A DNA stretch of 64,000 nucleotides, taken from contig JAVGWX010000011.1 in the NCBI GenBank assembly GCA_036924085.1, positions 13,252,818 to 13,316,817 of the forward strand, in the 5' to 3' direction. Made by a program: the position numbers and the translations under genes. The notes below the pieces were generated by a model, which worked only from the letters and a program-made list of their open reading frames with translations, had not been told where the DNA came from and made no database searches. The DNA comes from Ariolimax columbianus (lineage: Eukaryota > Mollusca > Gastropoda > Stylommatophora > Arionidae). The first letter of the stretch is position 1. The number at the start of each line of letters is the position of its first letter. Positions 46,519 through 60,330 of the stretch are shown in pieces.

Positions 46519-46896
46519 AGTAGTATATAAGGTCCCTTTTCACGCAAAAAGTGGAGCTGTTTTCCTCTTTAATTGTCCTATGATCCACACGCTGGTGGAG
46601 CTTATGATCCACACAGGGATCGGCGTGACCTTGGTTCTAGCCCGCGTCTTTCCCAGATACGTAATCGACAACTTCGCGGAGCGAAGTTATCGAATTTTAT
46701 AATTAATAGGAGTAGCTAATTATTGATTTGTTGTTGTTGTTGTTGTTGTCCTAACGTATTTACAATATATAAACAAGTAGGCAAATAAGACGAAACAAAA
46801 ATATAATAGTGGATATATACAGCTTTTATTTGTTTGGGATCAATATCACAATGACTCGCAGTTCATTTCAAGTATCATTCTAAGTGGCTCAAACCA
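46519..46896 (+). repeat. Maverick left terminal inverted repeat
   Basis: 378 bp matching the reverse complement of 57323-57708 with few differences. It includes a perfect-stem hairpin region (46666-46694), a (TTG)n tract (46729-46749) and TATA-like words (ATATATAAAC). The last part overlaps the end of the cyclin C-terminal remnant. Confidence 0.95.
46666..46694. other. Hairpin inside left terminal repeat
   Basis: TCGACAACTTCGC, loop GGA, GCGAAGTTATCGA: 12 Watson-Crick pairs plus one A/C mismatch on this strand, which reads as a G.T pair on the other strand, with a 3-base loop. It is conserved in the right repeat at 57534-57562. Confidence 0.8.
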
Positions 46897-47170
46897 CTCT
46901 TTATCAAAATGTTGACATATGGTTGATACGTCTGTGTAGTTCCTATGGTACTTTCACTCGGCAATGTGTCTTGTCCACTTTCCGATAAAATGAACGAGTG
47001 GAAAGGTGTGATGAAATCTAGGCAAGCTTTCATATCAGTGTGAGTCAGCCCAGATATTTCGTATACATCTTCCGCAATTGACGAATAAAGAATCAATATT
47101 GCCGCTGGGACCTCCCGATAATTATAGATGACACAGTTTTTATCTAACAGCGAATTATCCGCAATTCAAT
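46875..47170 (-). pseudogene. Possible C-terminal cyclin-fold remnant
   Basis: A minus frame running from about 47170 to 46875, with no ATG at its start, encodes a segment resembling the second cyclin fold (EVPAAILILYSSIAEDVYEI, then TDMKACLDFITPF). It lies downstream of the N-terminal cyclin-box frame but in a different frame, with stops between. It may be the second half of a frameshifted cyclin gene. The end overlaps the terminal repeat. Similarity to cyclin C-domains is weak. Confidence 0.45.
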
Positions 47171-47202
47171 ACATTTCTAATAGTTCGCGGTTCCCAAAGG
47201 AA

Positions 47203-47685
47203 TTATTTTTTACATCTAGCCACGTCTAAATAAATATCTAAACATGAAACAGTTGTACTTACACATAACCGGAAATCTAGAATTTCGAGAATGCTTCTTT
47301 CTTTGGCTAATATGACTCTTTTAGGGTAAACGTTATTCACCATATCACTCAGTTGAGTGACCGATAAAGTGCAAGTCTCTTCATATTTGCTACCTATCCA
47401 CAAACAAGTTATATCAATTAGTTCTAAGTCTCTAATGTTTATTTCCCCAGTCTCTCCACTTAAGTATCTATCAAATATGTCAACGGTTAAATGAAAGGTC
47501 CATTTCTCAAAAGAGAATACTCGACATATATCAGCAATATAATATATAACCATAGCCCTAGCGCGCTGTGTGATAACACGTGAATGCCTCAATTCATCCT
47601 TTGACCTAACATGAACCCATTGGTGTAACACAAGTATCGTGTCACGCAAGTCGCTTTCAGTAACACTGTAATCCGTCACTCTCAC
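47203..47685 (-). CDS. Cyclin-box protein (viral cyclin-like)
   Basis: A 160-aa frame with the features of the N-terminal cyclin box of A/B-type cyclins: RAMVIYYIADICRVF (helix 1, the MR-ILVDWL-EV position), LTVDIFDRYLS (helix 2), DITCLWIGSKYEE (helix 3, the GSKYEE hallmark), then YPKRVILAKERSILEILDFRL (helices 4-5, the M-E--IL--L-F-L motif). In host cyclins the conserved Lys and Glu of these helices contact CDK; both are present here (K of SKYEE, E of KERSILE). The frame has no ATG at its 5' end: it is open upstream to a stop near 47725, so a 5' exon, a lost start or a non-ATG start is needed. A second cyclin fold may follow out of frame. It lies between the left repeat and the PC4-like gene, so it is element cargo. 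Host capture is inference. Confidence 0.8.
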   Translation of the reverse strand: MRVTDYSVTESDLRDTILVLHQWVHVRSKDELRHSRVITQRARAMVIYYIADICRVFSFEKWTFHLTVDIFDRYLSGETGEINIRDLELIDITCLWIGSKYEETCTLSVTQLSDMVNNVYPKRVILAKERSILEILDFRLCVSTTVSCLDIYLDVARCKK

Positions 47686-48796: not shown

Positions 48797-49207
48797 TTAT
48801 AGATTATAGACAGCGTTATCATCAGCATCGCATGGAGCGTCGGTAGAATACCTTGTTAAAACCACGGGTATGTTTGTACTTTTAAAACCTGGACCAGATG
48901 CGTTGCAAGTAATAGGACAGGGACTGAACGGTATCGCTGATGTTGATTGTTGTAATCTTTTAAACTCAGTTAGAATTTCGTCTCGGAAACTTAGCAAATG
49001 TTCAAATTCTTGGTGGGTCAGGGTTACTCCAACTTTAGTTGGAAACTTTAGATTTGTTTCTCCACAGTATTTTCTGATGTGTAGTAAAGCATGCTCTTTG
49101 TAAAAACTGACTGAAGCTACTTTGAACCCAGTACCCAAGGGTTTCACCAGTTCGTCGTTTCTACTCGCATATACACAATTTGTAATAGGTTCATTCGCTG
49201 TATGCAT
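48797..49207 (-). CDS. PC4/Sub1-like single-stranded-DNA-binding protein
   Basis: From the first ATG (49207) the frame gives about 136 aa. Residues about 30-85 resemble the PC4 (p15) domain: VASVSFYKEHALLHIRKYC (the beta strands with the HIR/DIR motif), then PTKVGVTLTHQEFEHLL (the P-rKGisL--eqw--L motif before the helix). PC4 proteins bind single-stranded DNA and act in transcription and replication in the nucleus. The N-terminus is short and the C-terminal 50 residues are low-complexity and Ser/Pro/Asn-rich. The frame is undamaged. The domain call rests on motif recognition and needs a profile search. Confidence 0.7.
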   Translation of the reverse strand: MHTANEPITNCVYASRNDELVKPLGTGFKVASVSFYKEHALLHIRKYCGETNLKFPTKVGVTLTHQEFEHLLSFRDEILTEFKRLQQSTSAIPFSPCPITCNASGPGFKSTNIPVVLTRYSTDAPCDADDNAVYNL

Positions 49208-49445
49208 CTTTGTTGGTCTGTGAAAGCATCTTTTGAGTCTTGACACTCACTCTGAGTATTTATACGCCGGCAGATTCTTGAAAACGTGTCCAGACTTGTT
49301 GCGCCTTTTCCACTGTCTGACTTAACGAAAAACCACTCTATCAATGACGTGTTGTCTTTGAGAGAAGGGTAACAGGGCGCGACTCATACTCCCACCATGT
49401 GCTTTTATTAAGATGAAATAAATGGCGTACAGTCCACAAACGCCG

Positions 49446-49748
49446 TTAGAAATATCTTGTAAATGCCGCCCGTTGTATACGGTAAAGAAGAATTTCTTCG
49501 TATAAAATGAGTAATATCCGAGTGAAGGGGTGGTAGACCAAAAGAACAGAAATACTCAAAATTTCCTTATAATATAAGGCAACCCAATGGGTGCCCGGTC
49601 GGGGGTGGGGATCTGTGTTGAGGATAAAGGCCGCGCTTTTAATCGAATCAATACATGTCGGTAATTGATCACGTGCTAAAACTTTAACGCCAATTCGTTG
49701 AACGAATATATCAGATACAAGTATGTCGTAAATCTCTTGGGTGTTCAT
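49446..49748 (-). pseudogene. PRO: Adenovirus-type cysteine protease, frameshifted
   Basis: The 100-aa frame starts at an ATG (49748) and carries the catalytic His motif GTHWVALYY (His about residue 54), typical of adenain-like proteases that mature Polinton capsids. After about residue 61 (near 49565) the frame diverges; a match to the next part of the family (FGLPPL) lies in another frame. The C-terminal catalytic Cys region expected further on is not visible, and the gene runs into unrelated sequence before 49400. It is therefore both frameshifted and truncated. Confidence 0.8.
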
Positions 49749-49788
49749 TGTATTGAGCTATATAATCTGTCAAAACTTGGCGAGATTT

Positions 49789-51066
49789 TCAAATTTCCAA
49801 AAAAGAATCCTGTTCGGCATAAACGATAACCTGTAACGGCTCAGGAGTGATAATAGAAAACTTGAGTTCTACGGAGAGAGAACCAAATTTAGCCATTTCA
49901 AACTGATCACCATCCAACAGACTGGGGCTTAGATCAAAGGCGTATGAGGCGTAGCCGTTCTTAAAATGTCGATATTCGAGATCATTCTCAGCATCCTTGG
50001 CGATGAGACCCATAGCTAGATTAGTCCCATAGAAAGCTCTCACATATTGGTTGTGGTCATAGTCCATTGACAGCGGTTTACCACTAACTGTTCTACCATC
50101 CAAGCTGACGTTGAAATATATCAAGCCAAAATTTGCTAAATTAAAAGGGTTAGCTTTGTATGACCCGTTAAAGGCCGCTGACGTAACTACACCAATCACT
50201 ATACGCGTAGGTGTTTGACTAAGAAATAGATTATCTTGCGAGTGGGATAACATTCCTTTAGGAAAAGAAAAAGTCTTCACCCCGACGCGCTTAAGGGGAT
50301 ACTTGACATTACCTCGCAGCAAGGCTTTCTCATGAGCTAGCGAGATGGCCGGATTTAGTTTAGCTTTTCGAATCACCAAAGCGGCGTATGTTATAACCGA
50401 TTTATAACCGATCGTGCTGTCGTGGGCGATCAAGTTGAATGTATCTTTAGTTGGACTGAGCTTGATCTTAACATCCACACCGTTGATTAAGTAGCGATCT
50501 TGGGCGAAAATATCTGAATGGAGTCGCCCCATCATATCGAGCTCATGGGATATACTGGCTAGATTCCGACGGATCTTTAGAACGTTGTTAGCATCACCTT
50601 CTGTATCGGTAATAAAACTCGGGGTGTCTGTGTAAAACAGAGCGGCTGTTATATGACCGCGCTTGGCCTCTTCACCGTAATTCAAACACACTTCCAAGTA
50701 AGCCCAATAAGAGTAAGTGTTCTCGCTCGGAGTGACTAGGGTATTATTAAGCGAGACATCGACCTGAGAGAATAAGCTGTGTATATAATAATTAATTGGG
50801 GCCACTTTGGCATCAATGGGTAACTTGTCACCAGTATTTAACGTGATTTTGGCTCGTACGTGTAAAAAGGTGTTAAACAGATCCAAATATTCTTCGCCAT
50901 TACCCGAAATAACAAATTCTAACGGAGCTCCGGTGGCTAGAGCAGCTAGTGGATGTATCTCTACGAATTGTCCTTTTTCCACGGCTGTTTGTGTAGGTGG
51001 CACGCTAAATAAATCTAGACCGCTGTGCAACCATTCACGCGAATTGTGGTGAATCAGAGCCATCAT
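49789..51066 (-). CDS. MCP: Major capsid protein (Polinton double-jelly-roll type)
   Basis: An intact 425-aa frame starts ATGATG at 51066. The N-terminus has LDLFSVPPTQTAVEKGQF and ISGNGEEYLDLFNTFLHVRA, then HSLFSQVDVSLNNTLVTPS, the conserved signature of the Polinton/adintovirus capsid protein annotated in animal genomes as F54H12.2-like. The middle and C-terminus (NLFLSQTPTRIVIGVV, NPFNLANFGLIYFNVSLDG, YDHNQYVRAFY) continue the match to the end. Length is within the usual range. The start overlaps the stop of the upstream small gene (51063). It is the only large structural gene without a break. Confidence 0.9.
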   Translation of the reverse strand: MMALIHHNSREWLHSGLDLFSVPPTQTAVEKGQFVEIHPLAALATGAPLEFVISGNGEEYLDLFNTFLHVRAKITLNTGDKLPIDAKVAPINYYIHSLFSQVDVSLNNTLVTPSENTYSYWAYLEVCLNYGEEAKRGHITAALFYTDTPSFITDTEGDANNVLKIRRNLASISHELDMMGRLHSDIFAQDRYLINGVDVKIKLSPTKDTFNLIAHDSTIGYKSVITYAALVIRKAKLNPAISLAHEKALLRGNVKYPLKRVGVKTFSFPKGMLSHSQDNLFLSQTPTRIVIGVVTSAAFNGSYKANPFNLANFGLIYFNVSLDGRTVSGKPLSMDYDHNQYVRAFYGTNLAMGLIAKDAENDLEYRHFKNGYASYAFDLSPSLLDGDQFEMAKFGSLSVELKFSIITPEPLQVIVYAEQDSFLEI

Positions 51067-51546: not shown

Positions 51547-52698
51547 CTATTCGAAATCAAAACGTTTGCTGGTTCGAAAATGTAGTGTCAGCACCGACGT
51601 GCCTTTCGCGAATGGGAGTGGTTTACCCATTTCGTTGGTTAAAAGGATTTCCACAGTGTCAAAAGAAAAACGACTCAAGGGAAGGTAGTGTGGTTTGTCG
51701 TAAACCCAAAAAACGGAGGCCGAAGTCCTATCCAAAATAGGGACAATCCGTAAAAGGGGTACCAGGACATCACCAACAGGTCTCGCCTCCGCGAGATCGC
51801 AATACAAGTACACATTTTTCATTTCGCTCTCCATTTGCAATTCATTCAAACCCTTTTGTCTTGGGTTTCTTTTTGTTATGTGTGAGTTGCTAAAACCTAA
51901 AATATGTCTCAGGTTTTCACTAATTTCAAGTTCACCTTCGAATAGTTCTAATATAGGCATATCCTCTTTAAAAGCAAAGCTAAAGGGTGGGGTGTTACTC
52001 CCCATCAAATCGTCCACTAATTTATTTAAAGTTTCGATTAGCCCACTGGGTGACTGGTAAACACCAGGTTTCAACGAAAGCTGAGACGGCTCTGTATGTT
52101 TCTTGTTGGCTGGAAAGTATTGAACCCAAACTTCATTCTGTAGAATGTTAATTTCTGTTTTCGTTTTCTCCTCAGACTGTCCCACCTGTCTTGGGCTGGA
52201 TTTTGTTATATGCGAGGCACTGAAACCTAAAAAATTTATCAAACTTTCACTAAGTGTTACGACGGCGCCAAGTTCGAATAGCTCAAAAATAACCTTATCT
52301 TTTTTTAAAAGAAAAATAAAGGGTGGCACGTTGTTACTCACTGACATATTGAGCACGAGCTGATTTAAAACTTCCATAAACAAATTTGGTGACTGGTATA
52401 AACCCGGATGCAGCGTGAGTAGTACAGAAGCTTTATTTCGCGTATTGGGTAGAAAGTCACACGTCATCAGCTAGAACGTTGTAATAACTTTTTAAGAATT
52501 GAATCTCGACCAACCCCACCTCGTACTGCGACGTTAACTCTATAGTCTACGGTAATTTGACGAAGAAGTGACCAGCGGAATTATCAGGATATAAACTTAG
52601 AGAGGCGTTACTCGGCAGGGTCACAAAAACTCCTAGTTTCTGACTAGTCAATTTTGGGTTAGACAACTGCTCAACAAAGCGGTCCACAACTTTCCGTC
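51547..52698 (-). pseudogene. Penton/minor capsid-like protein with internal duplication
   Basis: The main frame (51547-52467, 306 aa) ends with the conserved C-terminal block EARPVGDVLVPLLRIVPI, then VYDKPHYLPLSRFSFDTVEI and LHFRTSKRFDF, as in Polinton penton-like proteins. The N-terminal part (VFVTLPSNAS, near 52630) is present upstream but contains a TAG at 52547-52549 and a frame change near 52465. Two tandem, diverged copies of about 94 residues (5-98 and 118-210; PGLYQSP/PGVYQSP ... NFLGFSASHITK/HILGFSNSHITK) lie in the middle, an unusual expansion. No ATG was found at the 5' end. Confidence 0.8.
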
Positions 52699-52901
52699 AC
52701 GTCCTTCACTGCTACTCCCTGTCAGATTAAACAATGAAACCGCGATTACCGCATATATAGCCAGCATCTGGTAGACGAAGACTATTTCTACTCGTGGAAG
52801 TAGTTTTCCAAAAAAGGCCAGAGAGAGGTTCTACTGTCGCGTTCACCCGACTCTTCGACTACACGCAGCGGTATTTCGTGATTTTCCTCCTCGGGTTCCA
52901 T
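52655..52901 (-). pseudogene. Small membrane protein, frameshifted
   Basis: An ATG at 52901, overlapping the end of the integrase frame, starts a short acidic frame (MEPEEENHEIPLRVVEE) that stops near 52785. In a second frame a hydrophobic segment YQMLAIYAVIAVSLFNLTG (one transmembrane helix) follows and ends near the start of the penton gene. This position and design match a small single-pass protein often found beside the integrase in animal Polintons. The function is unknown. Confidence 0.5.
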
Positions 52902-53964
52902 CACTCTTTATATATCGCAACGTCTCCGGCTGAAATCCAACTGTTGAATGTGTGGTTATAGCCAAACCATTTGACTAAATACTCATGCCTACCATCCACG
53001 TAGCGTTCCCGAATAAAGCTTTCAACGCGGTACGCGGTCTTATCACCGACTATCTGGAGTTCTTCCTTGTAAAAAGCCCCGTGCAGTTCCTCCCCACCAT
53101 CATCTTTAACTACATACGTTATCGAAATCATTCTGTTTATTCGACTGATAGTAAACAGCTCCTCTGTCCAGGCTGGTTTATAACTCTTTTTAAATATTTG
53201 TCTGGCTTCAGCTAGCCTTACACGAGCTCCAACTTTAAAAACAGTGTTTCCAGGGAGGACAACTGTCGAATACAAGTTACGCCACACCTCTTCTTGATTG
53301 GTTAAATTAACTTGCGTGGGTGCCATCATCATGCTCCTATGGTACGAATTAATGTAGTTTTGAACAAAGCGACCTATTACGTCAATATATCTAAGTTTAT
53401 TCGACTTGGTAAAATATCGCCACATCTTTTCCGTCAAGGTTCGGTTGAAGCGTTCGACTATAGCGGCTATAATATCCTTGTTCTCGGTAGTACCAAATTC
53501 ACATTCTCCTTTCGTAGATAGGTGATAAAGGCCTTGTTAAGAAACTCATTTCCTTTGTCCGTTTGAAAGTTTATCGGTTTTCCGCGCTTAAAGATTTCAC
53601 GCACAGCCGCGACTAGAGCTTTTCCAGTTTTATTTCTAATTGGAATTGCCCAGGCGACTTTACTGAAAATTTCGATACACGTCACTTGGTAGGAAAACCC
53701 GTCGTTGTAGTTTTTTAAACTACGCATATCGATTAAGTCAGCTTGAAATTTTTGGTTCACGCCACTTGTTACGGTAATCCGCCTCTTAAATTTTCTTCGC
53801 ACATGCTTATGAAGAGTATAAGTCTCTTGAGTCCTTAACCAGCGTTCAACTTTTTTAGAACTAAGGTTTGTATTCCTGTGTAATCCAGAAACTCCACCAA
53901 AAGCACCCAGACTACCAGGATCGTAGTAGTCTTGGTTCAAATGCTTATTCACCATTTTTCCCAT
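52901..53964 (-). pseudogene. INT: Retroviral-type integrase with chromodomain, one frameshift
   Basis: The first frame (ATG at 53964, 165 aa) holds the catalytic core: FQADLIDM (first Asp, residue 76) and FQTDKGNEF (second Asp, residue 136). Near 53465-53480 the frame breaks; the VERFNRT motif with the catalytic Glu is in the other frame just before the second open piece (52901-53437). That piece has EKMWRYFT, an SH3-like region (FKVGARVRLAE) and a chromodomain (YRVESFIRERYVDGRHEYLV, then KWFGYNHTFNSW) at residues about 135-172. The integrase would insert the element and the chromodomain would target chromatin. A single frameshift suggests fairly recent death. Confidence 0.9.
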
Positions 53965-54380
53965 TTTTGCGTTTTACTTTTCTTTTTTCTCTTTCTGAGC
54001 ACGTATGGAGAGACTTCACCACCGACCGCTTTCTCCGCCTTATTCGCAACAGGCGTGACTTGTTCGATCGGTAACTGTTGACTTTTGTCGTCTACGGTGT
54101 CTTTATGTACCACCGGTGCCGCTGGCTGGTCGAGGGTTGTGTATTGTGTAAAATTGACTAAACCTATCGGTTTGTGTTTGTACTGATATAGCCGAGTCAG
54201 ATACCGTTGAAGTGTTTGTCGGTATAGCTTGGCTTTATCCCCTGTCGATATATCCTCACGAAGTAATACTCGGTGCTTTTGAGTATCCAAGTCTTCTAGA
54301 TTATCTCTTAACGCGTTGGGTGGTCTATAAGGTTGTGTTTCTAACAACCGAGGATCTACAAAAACCATTTTCTTGGCCAT
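53949..54380 (-). CDS. Conserved Polinton-associated protein, unknown function
   Basis: A 143-aa frame from an ATG at 54380, overlapping the integrase start by 16 bases. The N-terminus reads MAKKMVFVDPRLLETQPYRP, the middle has a helix TGDKAKLYRQTLQRYLTRLY and the end is basic (YVLRKRKKKSKTQKWEKW). A protein of this pattern (short PR-LE start, KV-LY-Q-LQRYL helix, LRKRK end) recurs next to the integrase in animal Polintons. No catalytic motif. It is intact. No function can be assigned. Confidence 0.7.
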   Translation of the reverse strand: MAKKMVFVDPRLLETQPYRPPNALRDNLEDLDTQKHRVLLREDISTGDKAKLYRQTLQRYLTRLYQYKHKPIGLVNFTQYTTLDQPAAPVVHKDTVDDKSQQLPIEQVTPVANKAEKAVGGEVSPYVLRKRKKKSKTQKWEKW

Positions 54381-54383
54381 TGT

Positions 54384-54695
54384 TCAAAGACCCAAGACAC
54401 CTTTCAACACGTTTAGTATAGGACTCAACAAAGCCCCTATAAAACCACCTTTTTGTAAAATTTGTGTCCGTCTTTTCAGCGACAACTTCTTTTTAGTGAG
54501 TGCTCTCAGACTACGTTTGTATCGAGCGATTCTAGTTCTCTGACTAGACGTCAGCGGAACGTTGCCTTTTAATACGTTATGGCAACACTCGCAGAGTGTG
54601 TGGACGAGTTCCGGTGACGCAGTTTTTACAATAGCTTTGATGGCTGCAGGTTTAGCCGCACCCATGAATTGTAAGATTTCACCGTGTCGTTTCAA
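54384..54695 (-). CDS. Conserved small Polinton protein with hydrophobic C-terminus
   Basis: A 103-aa frame: an N-terminal helix, the block LVHTLCECCHNVLKGNVPLT, a basic stretch SQRTRIARYKRSLRALTKKK, and a QKGGFIGALLSPILNVLKG end. The LC--HN-LKGNVPL and QKGGF-GALL motifs are familiar from animal Polintons/adintoviruses, where the gene sits between the ATPase and the unknown protein. The end could be membrane-active, but that is inference. Confidence 0.7.
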   Translation of the reverse strand: MKRHGEILQFMGAAKPAAIKAIVKTASPELVHTLCECCHNVLKGNVPLTSSQRTRIARYKRSLRALTKKKLSLKRRTQILQKGGFIGALLSPILNVLKGVLGL

Positions 54696-54711
54696 ATTCT
54701 TGGCTATTTCG

Positions 54712-55025
54712 CTATTTAGGTATGTAAACGACCTGAAGTTCGTCTGGAAATATGTTGCCTCGCAATCTCAGTGGATCTGGTGTCTCCTGTCGAAGATCGA
54801 ATAACAAATAACCGTGTGGTGAGCGTGTAGCGTCTTTAAAGCTTTCTTCGACATAGGTAGTTTGACCAGGGTACATTTGTTTGGCCAGATTCGTAATCTG
54901 CGAAGCGTCACGCGGGTTTTTGATAACAACCAAATAGTGAGAATTTAAACTGATAGTTCTTTGTTCCTTATTTTTTCTAAAAAGGTTTTGTACGATGGAT
55001 ATAACGCTTAAATTACGGTGGTGAC
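54712..55025 (-). pseudogene. ATP: A32/FtsK-type packaging ATPase, C-terminal fragment
   Basis: The minus strand reads SHHRNLSVISIVQNLFRK near 55005 (sensor region with the conserved Gln), then ISLNSHYLVVIKNPRDASQI and ATRSPHGYLLFDLR at 54712-54933, the C-terminal half of the Polinton ATPase. Walker A and B motifs are absent. The sequence stops at about 55025, where polymerase coding sequence begins on the other strand, so an internal deletion removed the N-terminus. The normal role is pumping DNA into capsids. Confidence 0.82.
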
Positions 55026-55029
55026 TCTA

Positions 55030-56695
55030 CGGTGTGGGCACTAATGCAAAAGATGCCTACTGATTTTCCTATTAGACGGAAAAAAGAGGACGGTTTCAGG
55101 CAGTATAAACCCTGTAGATACACCATCCAGTGTCACGAGTGGTTGACGTGGGTAGCCCATACCAAAACGATCGTGTTGAAGATCGCGAGATGGCTTTGGG
55201 ACCTAAACATATTACAGTCGACGGCTGGGACAAACAATCTCGAACATTCTACCAATTTCATGGTTGCCTTTTCCACTCTCCCTTAACCACAGGTCGAGAT
55301 ACTAACTCCGTCAACAACAAATCTCTGGTTTAGTTGTCTGAAAAGACACATGAAGTTAGTGAATACCTAAGGACCGAGTGTCAGGTTACTGTGGTTGAGA
55401 TTTGGGAATGTGAATGGCAAAAACTCAAAACGTGTGACCCTAGTATAAAGACGTTTCTGAAAACAACCTTTCATCAGCCAAAACCCTCGTATAACAAATA
55501 TAAGTATCCCCTGACGGATCAACAGATCCTGGCTTCTGTTGAAGATGAAAGTTTATTTGGTTTAGTAGAATGCGATATTCACGTCCACGACCACCTGAAG
55601 TCACATTTTTCAGAGATGAACCCAATCTTTAAAAATGTTGACGTTAGTCGCACTGATCTTGAATCGGTCATGCTCGAGTATGCCGAGAAGAATAAACTCT
55701 TGACCACCCCTAGCCGAACGTTAATAGGTAATTATGTGGGTCGTAAAATCTTGTTGGCGACCCCGCTCCTTCGTTGGTATCTGTCCAAGGGGTTGAAAGT
55801 CACGAACATTTACCAGGTGATTGAATATACACCTGTAACTTGTTTTAAAGAATTTGGGGATATGAGGGTTTCCGAGGCACGCCGACAAGGTGATCGAGAT
55901 GAGCTTTATTCCATTACTAGTGAAACGATGAAACTCTTAGGGAACTCTGCGTATGGGAAAACCTTAACCGATAAGGCAAAACACGTAGATGTAAATTACA
56001 CCACCGGAGAGGGAATGTCAAAATTAATAAACTGCCCCCGCTTTAAAAAAATGAGTCTATTTAACAGATTATATTTTTGAAGTCGAGCTAGGTAAAAAGA
56101 AAATTAATTGGGATCTCCCCTTACAAATAGGTTTTTTTCATTTACCAGTACGCCAAATTTCGGATATTGCGCTTCTACTATGAATACCTAGATAAATTTA
56201 TAGATAGAGCCGATTTTCAGTTGTGTGAGACAGATACAGACAGTCTGTATCTAGCGTTATCGACGCCCACTCTGTTGGACGCGATAAAACCGAACCTGCG
56301 ATCCGAATTTTATTGCGTATAGGATCAGTGGTTCCCCGCCGCTACCTGTCCTGAGCACCGAGACTCGTTTATTAGTAGTGAGGGTAAAGTGACTTTTGAT
56401 TGTCAGAAATGTCGGTAAACTCGCTCGTACGAAACACGAACGCCCGGTTTGTTTAAATTAGAGTACGAGGGAGCTGGGATGATTTCTCTTTGCAGTAAAA
56501 CCTATCACTGTTTCGGGGCTTACGACAAATCTAGCACTAAGGGTCTAATAAAAAATTATACCTAATTAGATAAAGCCAATTTTTTAGAGGTCCTAAATAC
56601 GCGACATAGCCAAGGTGGGGAAAATGTCGGATTCAAAGTCCACAATACTGGTATCTACACATATTCACAACACATAAACTCGCTAGCCTAGATCT
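55030..56695 (+). pseudogene. POLB: Protein-primed DNA polymerase B, truncated and frameshifted
   Basis: The first part (55085-55320) alternates between two frames (CHEWLTWVA, then GPKHITVDGWDK and FYQFHGCLFH). A TAG lies at 55331-55333. The frame 55334-56080 contains a palm region and motif B, TMKLLGNSAYGKT (K-x3-NSxYG). After about 56080 the frame breaks; motif C ETDTDSLYLAL is at about 56225-56257, followed by FKLEYEGAGMISLCSKTYH near 56450. The exonuclease and terminal-protein-like N-terminus are missing and the C-terminal end stops before 56700. Normal Polinton polymerases exceed 1,000 aa. It cannot be active. Confidence 0.9.
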
Positions 56696-56789: not shown

Positions 56790-57322
56790 CCGACTCCCCA
56801 GTACATGCTATGTGCTGTACAGCTGAGATGGACTGGTGCTGTGGTCTGAATGTCGTCTACCTACCTACGAAACTGTTTTATGTTGAACTACAAAAAAGCA
56901 AGTCGTGTGGAAAAAGGTACAAAGCCACGTTAATTCTAATAACTGTGTTCACCCCGCTGACTGGGGAAGAACCACCATCAATCGTTCAGACTAACGGAGA
57001 ACTGTTGCAGCATATAAGGCAACACGAATAATGGACGTGGAAATGCCTTATCTCGGTATCTTCATATCAACACTTGAATGTTACATTTACCTACTCCCCG
57101 GTGCATATTATGTACTGTACAGTTGAGATGCTCTGGCTATGTGGTCCACATGTCAACTACCTACAAAACTGTTTTATGTTGAACTACAAAAAAAATCAAG
57201 CAGTGTATAAAAAGATACACGGACACATTAATTCTAATAACTGTGTTAACCCCGATGACTGGGGAAGAACCACCACTAATCCTTCAGACTAACGGAGAAT
57301 TGTTGCAGCATACAAGGTAACC
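56790..57322 (+). repeat. Two tandem ~297-bp repeats beside the right terminal repeat
   Basis: 56790-57030 and 57087-57322 share CTGTACAGYTGAGATG, AACTGTTTTATGTTGAACTA and TTAATTCTAATAACTGTGTT in the same order, about 85-90 percent similar by eye. Short frames (56810-57031, 57074-57292) are not in matching frames, so coding is doubtful. Function unknown. The second copy ends exactly where the terminal repeat starts. Confidence 0.85.
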
Positions 57323-57468
57323 TGGTTTGAGTCACTTAGAATGATGCTTGAAATGAACTGCGAGTCATTGTGATATTGATCCAAAAAAATAAAAGCTGTA
57401 TATATCCACCATTATATTTTTGTTTCGTCTTATTTGCCCACTTGTTTATATATTGTAAATACGCTAGG

Positions 57469-57499
<31 letters not shown>

Positions 57500-57708
57500 A
57501 TCAATAATTAGCTACCCCTATTAATTATAAAAGTCGATAACTTCGCTCCGCGAAGTTGTCGATTACGTATCTGGGGAAGACGCGGGCTGGAGCCAAGGTC
57601 ACGCCGATCCCTGTGTGGATCATTAGCTCCACCAGCGTGTGGATCATAGGACAATTAAAGAGGAAAACAGCTCCACTTTTCGCGTGTAAAGGGACCTTAT
57701 ATACTACT
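57323..57708 (-). repeat. Maverick right terminal inverted repeat
   Basis: 386 bp, the inverted match of 46519-46896; the length difference is mainly in the (CAA)n tract (57472-57499). Ends CCTTATATACTACT. Contains the conserved hairpin at 57534-57562. Confidence 0.95.
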
Positions 57709-58379: not shown

Positions 58380-60330
58380 GAAACAACACACAATTTCATA
58401 GTCACCCTTCAGTGAATTCCAGGACACATAGAGATATCAGGCAATGAGAAAGACAGACTAGCAAAACTAGGTGTAATCATGGTTCACATAAACACTAGCC
58501 AACTTACAGACAGCAAAGCGGTACTTCTAAACAACTTCAAAGAGGAAAGGATGAGCCGATGGACGAAATGGTCTACTGGGCGTGCTGTGTATAAAGAAAT
58601 GACGCATTCGAACAGAAATGAGAACATCAACAAACTTCACGGCAGGGCGCAGAGCATTATCTTCAAAGTAAGAACGTAACAGATCGGACTTAAAAAATAC
58701 ATAAGCAAATTAGATCCCCCACAAAAACCTAATTGTCGCATCTGCACCCACTCACACTCACCCCGGACTCACCACAGACAGAGAAAAAGTGTTGCCCGGC
58801 ACCCAGCAATCACCAACACCTTATACAGCTCCACCCCAACAATAACCAACACCTTATACAGTTCCACCCCAACAATCACCAACACCTTATACAGCTCCAT
58901 CCCAACAATCACCAACACCTTATACAGCTCCACCCCAATAATCACCAACATCTTATACAGCTCCACCGCAACAATAACCAACACCTTATACAGCTCCACC
59001 CCAGCAATCACCAACACCTTATACAGCTCCACCCCAGCAATCACAAACACCTTATACAGCTCCACCCCAACAATCACCAACACCTTATACAGCTCCACCC
59101 CAACAATCACCAACACCTTATACAGCTCCACCGCAACAAACACCAACACCTTATACAGCTCCACCCCAGCAATCACCAACACCTTATACAGCTCCACCCC
59201 AGCAATCACCAACACCTTATACAGCTCCACCCCAACAATCACCAACACCTTGTACAGCCCCACCCCAACAATCACCAACACCTTATACAGCTCCACCCCA
59301 GCAATCACCAACACCTTATATAGCTCCACCCCAACAACAACCAACACCTTATATAGCTCCACCTTAACAACAACAAACACCTTATACAGCTCCACCCCAA
59401 CAATCACCAACACCTTATAGAGCTCCACCCCAGCAATCACCAACACCTTATACAGATCCACCGCAACAATCACCAACACCTTATACAGCTCCACCGGGGG
59501 TAATCGCAACACCTTGTACAGCTCCACCGCAACAACCTCCAACAACTTATACAGCTCCACCCCAACAATCACCAACACCTTACACAGCTCCACCCCAACA
59601 ATCACCAACACCTTACACAGCTCCACCCCAACAATCACCAACACCTTATACAGCTCCACCCCAACAATCACCAACACTTTATACAGCTCCACCGCAACAA
59701 TCACCAACACCTTATACAGCTCCACCCCAGCAATCACCAACACCTTATACAGCTCCACCCCAACAATCACCAACACCTTATACAGCTCCACCGCAACAAT
59801 CACCAACACCTTATACAGCTCCACCCCAACAATCACCAACACCTTATACAGCTCCACCCCAACAATCACCAACACCTTATACAGCTCCCCCGAACAATCA
59901 CCAACGCCTTATACAGCTCCACCGCAACAATAACCAACACCTTATACAGCGCCACCCCAACAATCACCAACACCTTATACAGCTCCACCCCAACAATCAC
60001 CAACAACTTGTACAACTCCACCCCAGCAATCACCAACACCTTATACAGCTCCACCCCAACAATCACCAACACCTTATACAGCTCCACCCCAACAATCTCC
60101 AACACCTTATACAGCTCCACCCCAACAACAACCAACACCTTATACAGCTCCACCCCTGCAATCACCAACACCTTATACAGCTCCACGCCAGCAATCACTA
60201 ACACCTTATACAAATCCACCCCAACAATCACCAACACCTTATACAGCTCCACCTACCAGCTACAAAACACTTGCAAATTCTACATCTTGGCATTGCGACA
60301 AAGTGAACAGCTTGTAAGACCTAGTTAATC
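58380..60330 (+). pseudogene. LINE-h C-terminus containing the 33-bp array
   Basis: 58395-58690 reads ISGNEKDRLAKLG-like RNase H end, ERMSRWTKWSTGRAVYKEMT and RAQSIIFKVRT. After the zinc-knuckle-like region (CRICTHSHS) the frame enters the 33-bp array as repeated ITNTLYSSTPT and leaves it at 60245 as STYQLQNTCKFYILALRQSE, the normal C-terminus of this LINE. The array is thus an in-frame expansion. Compare the single-copy paralogue at 34465-35230. Confidence 0.75.
58794..60250. repeat. 33-bp minisatellite, about 44 copies
   Basis: Unit CAATCACCAACACCTTATAC plus AGCTCCACCCCAA, 33 bp (11 codons), so both strands keep long open frames (minus: repeated VLVIVGVELYK, 368 and 128 aa). Variation is mostly CCCCAAC/CCGCAAC/CCCCAGC. 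Some units carry 2-3 base indels that shift the plus frame. Confidence 0.95.

Follow-up and report, generated by a model that had tools for sequence, protein, structure and literature searches.

A decayed E-type-like cyclin gene in a Polinton/Maverick family of the gastropod Ariolimax columbianus

How does a cyclin box come to lie within a virus-like mobile element, and what might it do there? The question is raised by a stretch of 64,000 nucleotides from the gastropod Ariolimax columbianus (assembly GCA_036924085.1, contig JAVGWX010000011.1, positions 13,252,818 to 13,316,817), called here the window. A first-pass annotation had described an open frame in it as an A/B-type cyclin-box gene carried inside a Maverick/Polinton. 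The reading favoured here, to which we give as a whole a probability of about 0.6, is that the frame belongs to a cyclin gene of a Polinton/Maverick family, in a copy that has decayed: an old, selected, E-type-like cyclin, captured from a host, that would drive S phase beside an apoptosis regulator.

The open frame (47203-47685, minus strand) lies exactly where it was first annotated and encodes 160 amino acids. The Pfam profile search that had been proposed as a check gave a single, significant match, Cyclin_N (87.4 bits, cut-off 23, E 8.5e-25), which bears out the claim of a cyclin box. Is it also a cyclin gene? The coordinates and the domain stand, but the frame covers the N-terminal half only. 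The C-terminal half (46878-47200, minus strand) is in another frame and contains a stop; in sister copies it is open and in one frame with the N-terminal half. The window copy is therefore broken. An intron within it was a first guess and was dropped, as the sister copies consist of one open exon. The window gene starts with GTG, at a position where Met is found in 42 of the 49 copies aligned, and its last codons overlap the left terminal repeat at the repeat's inner edge.

A search of the animal's own genome (2.29 Gb) with the cyclin ORF gave 86 matches, of which 76 are above 45% identity and represent 56 loci. The intact sister cyclin is usually 267 amino acids long, with one exon and both cyclin folds. 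Three sister proteins match Cyclin_N (6.4e-26, 3.9e-24 and 8e-27; 85-94 bits); Cyclin_C is narrowly above its cut-off of 22 in two of them (22.7 and 22.1) and reaches 12.9 in the third. Among the first 30 loci, seven have a stop-to-stop frame of at least 278 amino acids and 23 have none. Two of the seven long frames contain shifted sequence (L017 at its end, L027 in an internal stretch), and the other five (L002-L006) keep cyclin sequence throughout, with Leu in L005 at the position of the others' first Met.

The element that carries the cyclin in the window is 11.2 kb long, with terminal repeats, an integrase and a double-jelly-roll capsid protein. The left terminal inverted repeat (46519-46896, plus strand), which starts with AGTAGT, is 92-97% complementary to the right repeat (57323-57708, minus strand), which ends with ACTACT. 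Such long repeats with AGTAGT/ACTACT ends are as expected of Polintons/Mavericks, and in the available text of a vertebrate survey this type of end is the commonest motif reported for Mavericks (PMC8097293). The 6-bp target site duplication also expected is absent from the window copy, which is flanked by CACAAT on the left and TACACC on the right. Inside the element the cyclin ORF lies between the left repeat and the virus-like genes, just as the first-pass annotation had placed it.

Integrase and capsid protein are the best-defined of these genes. A retrovirus-like integrase is represented by a core (rve; 53467-53973, minus strand, E 4.5e-9) and a C-terminal part with a chromodomain (52901-53536, minus strand, E 1.2e-7), both above their cut-offs; a sequence search of the PDB with the integrase gave no match. 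The major capsid protein (49789-51066, minus strand) is a double jelly-roll by predicted fold, its model (pLDDT 84.6) matching the capsid proteins of the iridovirus SGIV (4.6e-15), Sputnik (1.2e-14) and mavirus (3e-13), and also that of PBCV-1. It has 748 homologs among 5.8 billion proteins, and among the 120 of these that were listed, the five rows naming an organism are all gastropods (Pomacea, Littorina twice, Elysia and Nucella). The best BFVD match of the model is a bracovirus-named protein with 32% identity. No close relatives appeared in IMG/VR scans with the capsid protein or a capsid alignment.

Other genes of the window copy are more tentative or are remnants. A candidate minor capsid protein (51547-52467, minus strand) is proposed by place and size, with no profile match above cut-off. 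An adenovirus-type C5 protease-like sequence is split over two frames (49411-49757, minus strand; 15.7 bits against a cut-off of 21.3, E 0.012), and a PC4-like gene (48797-49246, minus strand) scores 23.9 bits, below the cut-off of 25. Relatives of this PC4-like sequence, a single-strand DNA-binding coactivator, recur beside many cyclin copies. A conserved ORF (54384-54767, minus strand) has a 58% identical relative near a cyclin of the second lineage described below. The packaging-ATPase-like gene is a C-terminal remnant (54715-55026, minus strand), 95% identical to the ATPase ORF of a sister element, L062; against a Pox_A32 cut-off of 22.8 the L062 ORF scores 22.0 bits and that of another sister copy 17.2, with Walker motifs visible by eye. 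A broken PolB-like remnant (55032-56586, plus strand) shares 88-92% identity with open frames of L088, falling to 81% at its 3' end. In the PolB-like frames YDANALY, KLLGNSAYG and DTDS can be seen by eye, which we take to be PolB motifs; profile and PDB sequence searches for PolB, which in Polintons would be a protein-primed polymerase, gave no match. Two further features lie towards the right end: a direct repeat of 132 bp close to the right terminal repeat (56892-57321), in a region that recurs in several inverted derivatives, and, beside the element, a long repetitive stretch open on both strands (58733-60328).

The window copy lacks a stretch between ATPase and PolB that is present in two sister copies, and with it has lost a Bcl-2 family gene. 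In the sister elements this gene lies between ATPase and PolB (L062:1848-2312 and L087:960-1541, both minus strand), and the proteins match PF00452 with E-values of 3.2e-10 and 5.3e-9 (40.9 and 37.0 bits; cut-off 31.4). Linkage to the cyclin is repeated. There are 42 Bcl-2-like loci in the genome, although some may be host genes. At 25 of the 42 a cyclin is found within 16 kb, where the naive chance is about 0.001 per locus; at 57% identity or more, 23 of 34 loci are near a cyclin. In two of the 25 cases the neighbouring cyclin belongs to the second lineage. Weak PDB sequence matches (best 0.016) are to Bcl-2-like 4, Bcl-W and BAX, which do not separate pro- from anti-apoptotic proteins.

Which cyclin is it? 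In a PDB sequence search with two full-length element cyclins, human cyclin E1 scored 82.3 and 84.2 bits (E 4.3e-22 and 1e-22; from residue 15 or 16 to 240). The best chains of other types scored less: 50.0 and 46.2 bits for A2, 46.4 and 42.0 for B1, 32.4 and 27.2 for D1, and 31.5 and 35.7 for viral cyclins. By best-chain score, then, the nearest known cyclin appears to be E-type, and the A/B typing of the first-pass annotation is not supported. Transcription-type cyclins (C, H and T) were considered; none is among the 60 PDB matches listed. A cyclin structure model built from six near-identical rows reached a pLDDT of 36.6 and was not used. IMG/VR scans with the cyclin ORF and with an alignment of cyclins from two lineages found no close relatives. 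A search of 5.8 billion proteins also returned no cyclin relative, a weak null, the search requiring shared 5-residue words and a length band and returning no ordinary cyclin either.

What could an E-type-like cyclin do for the element? Two residues, K98 and E127, align with the Cdk-contact Lys and Glu, and of 49 copies 45 retain the first and 44 the second; we take the two to be equivalent to K266 and E295 of cyclin A. The element protein would thus most likely bind a host Cdk2-type kinase. Such binding would push quiescent cells into S phase, where the element's own polymerase could replicate in the nucleus. The docking patch is another matter. The hydrophobic docking patch of cyclins is the MRAIL motif with a Trp; the form MRAIL...W, which marks the cyclin E subfamily, is not found here and the patch reads [AT]RAMV...Y in most copies. 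Because the patch is not conserved, the usual cyclin E substrates may go unrecognised, and inhibitor or substrate docking would be altered. The S-phase role, which we infer, is helped by the Bcl-2 family gene of the sister elements, whose product would most likely hold off the apoptosis brought by an unscheduled S phase. By analogy with small DNA tumour viruses, a viral E-type-like cyclin and a viral Bcl-2 might form a two-gene module that forces S phase without apoptosis, a pairing that we hold to be somewhat better than an even bet.

Might the cyclin instead act on the kinase as a decoy or modifier? It would then bind a host Cdk and redirect or hold it, and the outcome would be arrest or evasion of Cdk inhibitors, not a simple G1/S drive. 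The retention of the Cdk-contact-aligned Lys and Glu together with a changed RXL-docking patch in the first lineage fits this, and the patch differs again in the second lineage (HRARL in L054). Yet both folds and a cyclin E-like N-terminal stretch have been kept, and a Bcl-2 companion, if anti-apoptotic, suits forced S phase better than arrest. A decoy is unlikely in our judgement, though worth keeping in mind.

If the cyclin drives S phase, where did it come from? A search of the host with Cyclin_N found cyclins D, B3-like, B, E and A, of which A, E and B were typed by search and D and B3 by eye. For each of the five there appear to be two similar genes, located on different contigs, a pattern like that left by a whole-genome duplication (B on C1 and C3, B3-like on C2 and C21, D on C11 and C23, E on C14 and C16, A on C18 and C24). 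As would be expected of genes with introns, the cyclin boxes of host B, B3-like, A and one E each lie in separate genomic pieces. A phylogeny with host cyclins, which had also been proposed as a check, places seven element rows in one clade with support of 99/99; these rows join E and D at a fork with weak support (72/78), the tree being of the N-terminal domain only and the program warning of long branches. Capture from a host is likely, given the split host boxes, the single exon of the element gene and the single clade of element cyclins. The E-type-like gene probably entered the element long ago, as a processed copy originating in an animal host.

The age of the association is suggested by a second set of cyclins. 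Ten matches in the genome search have 29-40% identity, of which nine were read (L053-L061); the tenth, on contig C244, repeats the C1 locus. The two loci (C244:4364-4696 and C1:85676984-85677316) have the same scores, which suggests that contig C244 repeats part of C1. Matches of 45% identity or less were at first labelled host cyclins. This was wrong; the ten look like element cyclins of a second lineage, about 40% identical to those of the first. The lineage sits in older relatives of the window's element family, and its copies are broken or incomplete as far as read. A common C-terminal tail is seen in part in L053, L054, L060 and L061. ATPase or protease relatives lie beside three of the nine short stretches, and beside a fourth once its flanks were read: L053 adjoins an ATPase relative (75%, E 1.6e-62) and has a capsid gene 4.8 kb away, protease-like sequence borders L055 and L056, and the C10 copy (L060), which lacks its first part, is followed by an ATPase and a relative of the conserved ORF 54384-54767. 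No element neighbour was found within the 0.6-1 kb read around L054, L057, L058, L059 and L061; a Bcl-2-like match lies 7.7 kb away at the L057 locus. L055 (1-250) and L056 (1-230) share the same junction of cyclin and protease-like sequence, as would be expected had a deletion derivative spread.

Were cyclins then captured twice, once for each lineage? The position of the gene gives some reason to ask: it is beside the terminal repeat and PC4 in the first lineage, and upstream of the ATPase in the two loci of the second lineage with that side read. Separate captures are nevertheless improbable, given that the element cyclins form a single clade (99/99) and that the tail LP.E..xG..QT.Q is common to both lineages in most rows.

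Is the captured cyclin of use, or is it carried along? Fifty stretches with the cyclin were read, including the window copy (L001) and two that overlap (L018 and L025). Changes shared by at least three copies were compared with singletons in 41 of the 50 stretches, leaving out L025 because of the overlap and any copy aligned at under 600 sites; changes in exactly two copies were not counted. The shared changes comprise 78 nonsynonymous, 42 synonymous and 2 stop, and the singletons 354 nonsynonymous, 99 synonymous and 31 stop, the latter spread evenly over codon positions (162/162/160). The ratio of nonsynonymous to synonymous changes is 1.86 for shared and 3.58 for singleton changes (one 0.52 of the other; Fisher p 0.0041, an approximate value, since shared changes do not arise independently of one another). 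The remaining two frames give p 1.0 and 0.9. Excluding CpG-type sites brings p to 0.035 in the true frame and to 0.75 and 0.73 in the others. Pairwise pN/pS is 0.59-0.71 in the cyclin frame and 0.78-0.88 in a frame moved by one. The lower ratio among shared changes, found in the true frame only, means that copies decay about neutrally after insertion and that the spreading lineage kept the cyclin frame. The reading frame has thus been under purifying selection in the spreading lineage, and the constraint is moderate. The captured gene would have been maintained in this way through the element's spread.

These data bear on the simpler proposal that a captured host cyclin was amplified with the element and has no function. 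It draws on the decay of most copies (among the first 30 loci, the 23 without a long frame and two shifted ones of the other seven) and on an in-frame pN/pS that falls only to 0.59-0.71. A passenger would hardly be expected to have its constraint confined to the true frame, or to persist in two lineages that are 40% identical and resemble each other in the C-terminal tail, and this proposal is disfavoured, being a shade less probable even than a double capture.

The linkage that the first-pass annotation had asked for is repeated many times over. Terminal-repeat sequence (at least 40 aligned bases) is present in 49 of the 50 stretches, other element genes (at least 60) in 42 and both in 41. 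The end motif AGTAGTA[TC]A is found in 29 of the 50, with flanks that mostly differ; those of L042 and L043 are alike. A cyclin occurs within 12 kb at 31 of 47 capsid loci, counting cyclins above 45% identity only, so that C4:1954241 was scored as cyclin-less despite a second-lineage cyclin 4.8 kb away. Conversely, a capsid gene is present at 30 of the 56 cyclin loci, mostly about 2.1-2.2 kb off and on the same strand. Four of the 16 capsid loci scored as cyclin-less were inspected. At one, a deletion has spared the repeat and the final 25 cyclin residues; at another, a deletion fuses the protease to the repeat. At the remaining two, element similarity ends short of the cyclin, either through truncation or through an insertion that exceeds the stretch read. 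The cyclin is a standard gene of the window's Polinton family. It is most likely ancestral to it, because of the linkage counts and because at the inspected loci its place is deleted or similarity has ended. A later host retrocopy inserted into the window element alone, for which the single exon would speak and which the first-pass annotation had named as its refutation, is excluded for all practical purposes by the capsid linkage, by the terminal repeats in 49 of 50 stretches with mostly different flanks where the end motif is found, and by the far greater distance of the host cyclins from the element cyclins.

Some copies look rearranged. In the inverted pairs L042/L043, L018/L025 and L033/L034, and in L046, a shorter stretch has a cyclin and a terminal repeat at each end, resembling duplications of the left end. 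The three pairs have no capsid match nearer than 0.67 Mb; for L046 the nearest is 8-13 kb away. L042 and L043 have a common flank, present in mirror image.

Are Polintons transposons, or are they viruses of animals? This old question is touched by the present reading. A selected host-type cyclin, together with a gene of an apoptosis-regulator family, would be needed by a virus replicating in resting cells but not by a plain transposon. If the reading holds, this would be the first report of a Polinton cyclin and perhaps also of an E-type cyclin in a virus, and the elements would be predicted to replicate as viruses in non-dividing host cells. It would also provide a testable viral cyclin of E-type look, whose changed docking patch may bear on inhibitor resistance.

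How does the cyclin compare with known systems? Known herpesvirus cyclins are D-type. The viral cyclins 1bu2 and 1jow, presumably those of gamma-herpesviruses, share with the element a virus-borne cyclin box, but the element cyclins score 31.5-35.7 bits against them and 82-84 against E1. No Polinton cyclin appeared in the titles, abstract openings and passages of literature pairing cyclins with Polintons, Mavericks, polinton-like elements or adintoviruses. The word cyclin is absent from the available text of the vertebrate Polinton/Maverick survey (PMC8097293), whereas the window's family carries one. All adintoviruses have an integrase, as here, and the available text on them likewise does not contain the word (PMC11071296). 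A parallel in gene content is in NCLDV-like regions of Klebsormidium, where the available text describes a cyclin beside capsid and packaging ATPase genes (PMC5294986); the likeness is in the neighbouring genes, the differences in that the cyclin is of the plant U-type, the host is a green alga and the regions are two. In the protein itself the closest likeness is to animal cyclin E, as the alignment with human E1 (PDB 8h6p and 1w98) spans residues 16-240 (E 4.3e-22). From animal cyclin E the element protein differs in lacking the MRAIL...W patch, in having a C-terminal tail of its own and in being encoded by one exon.
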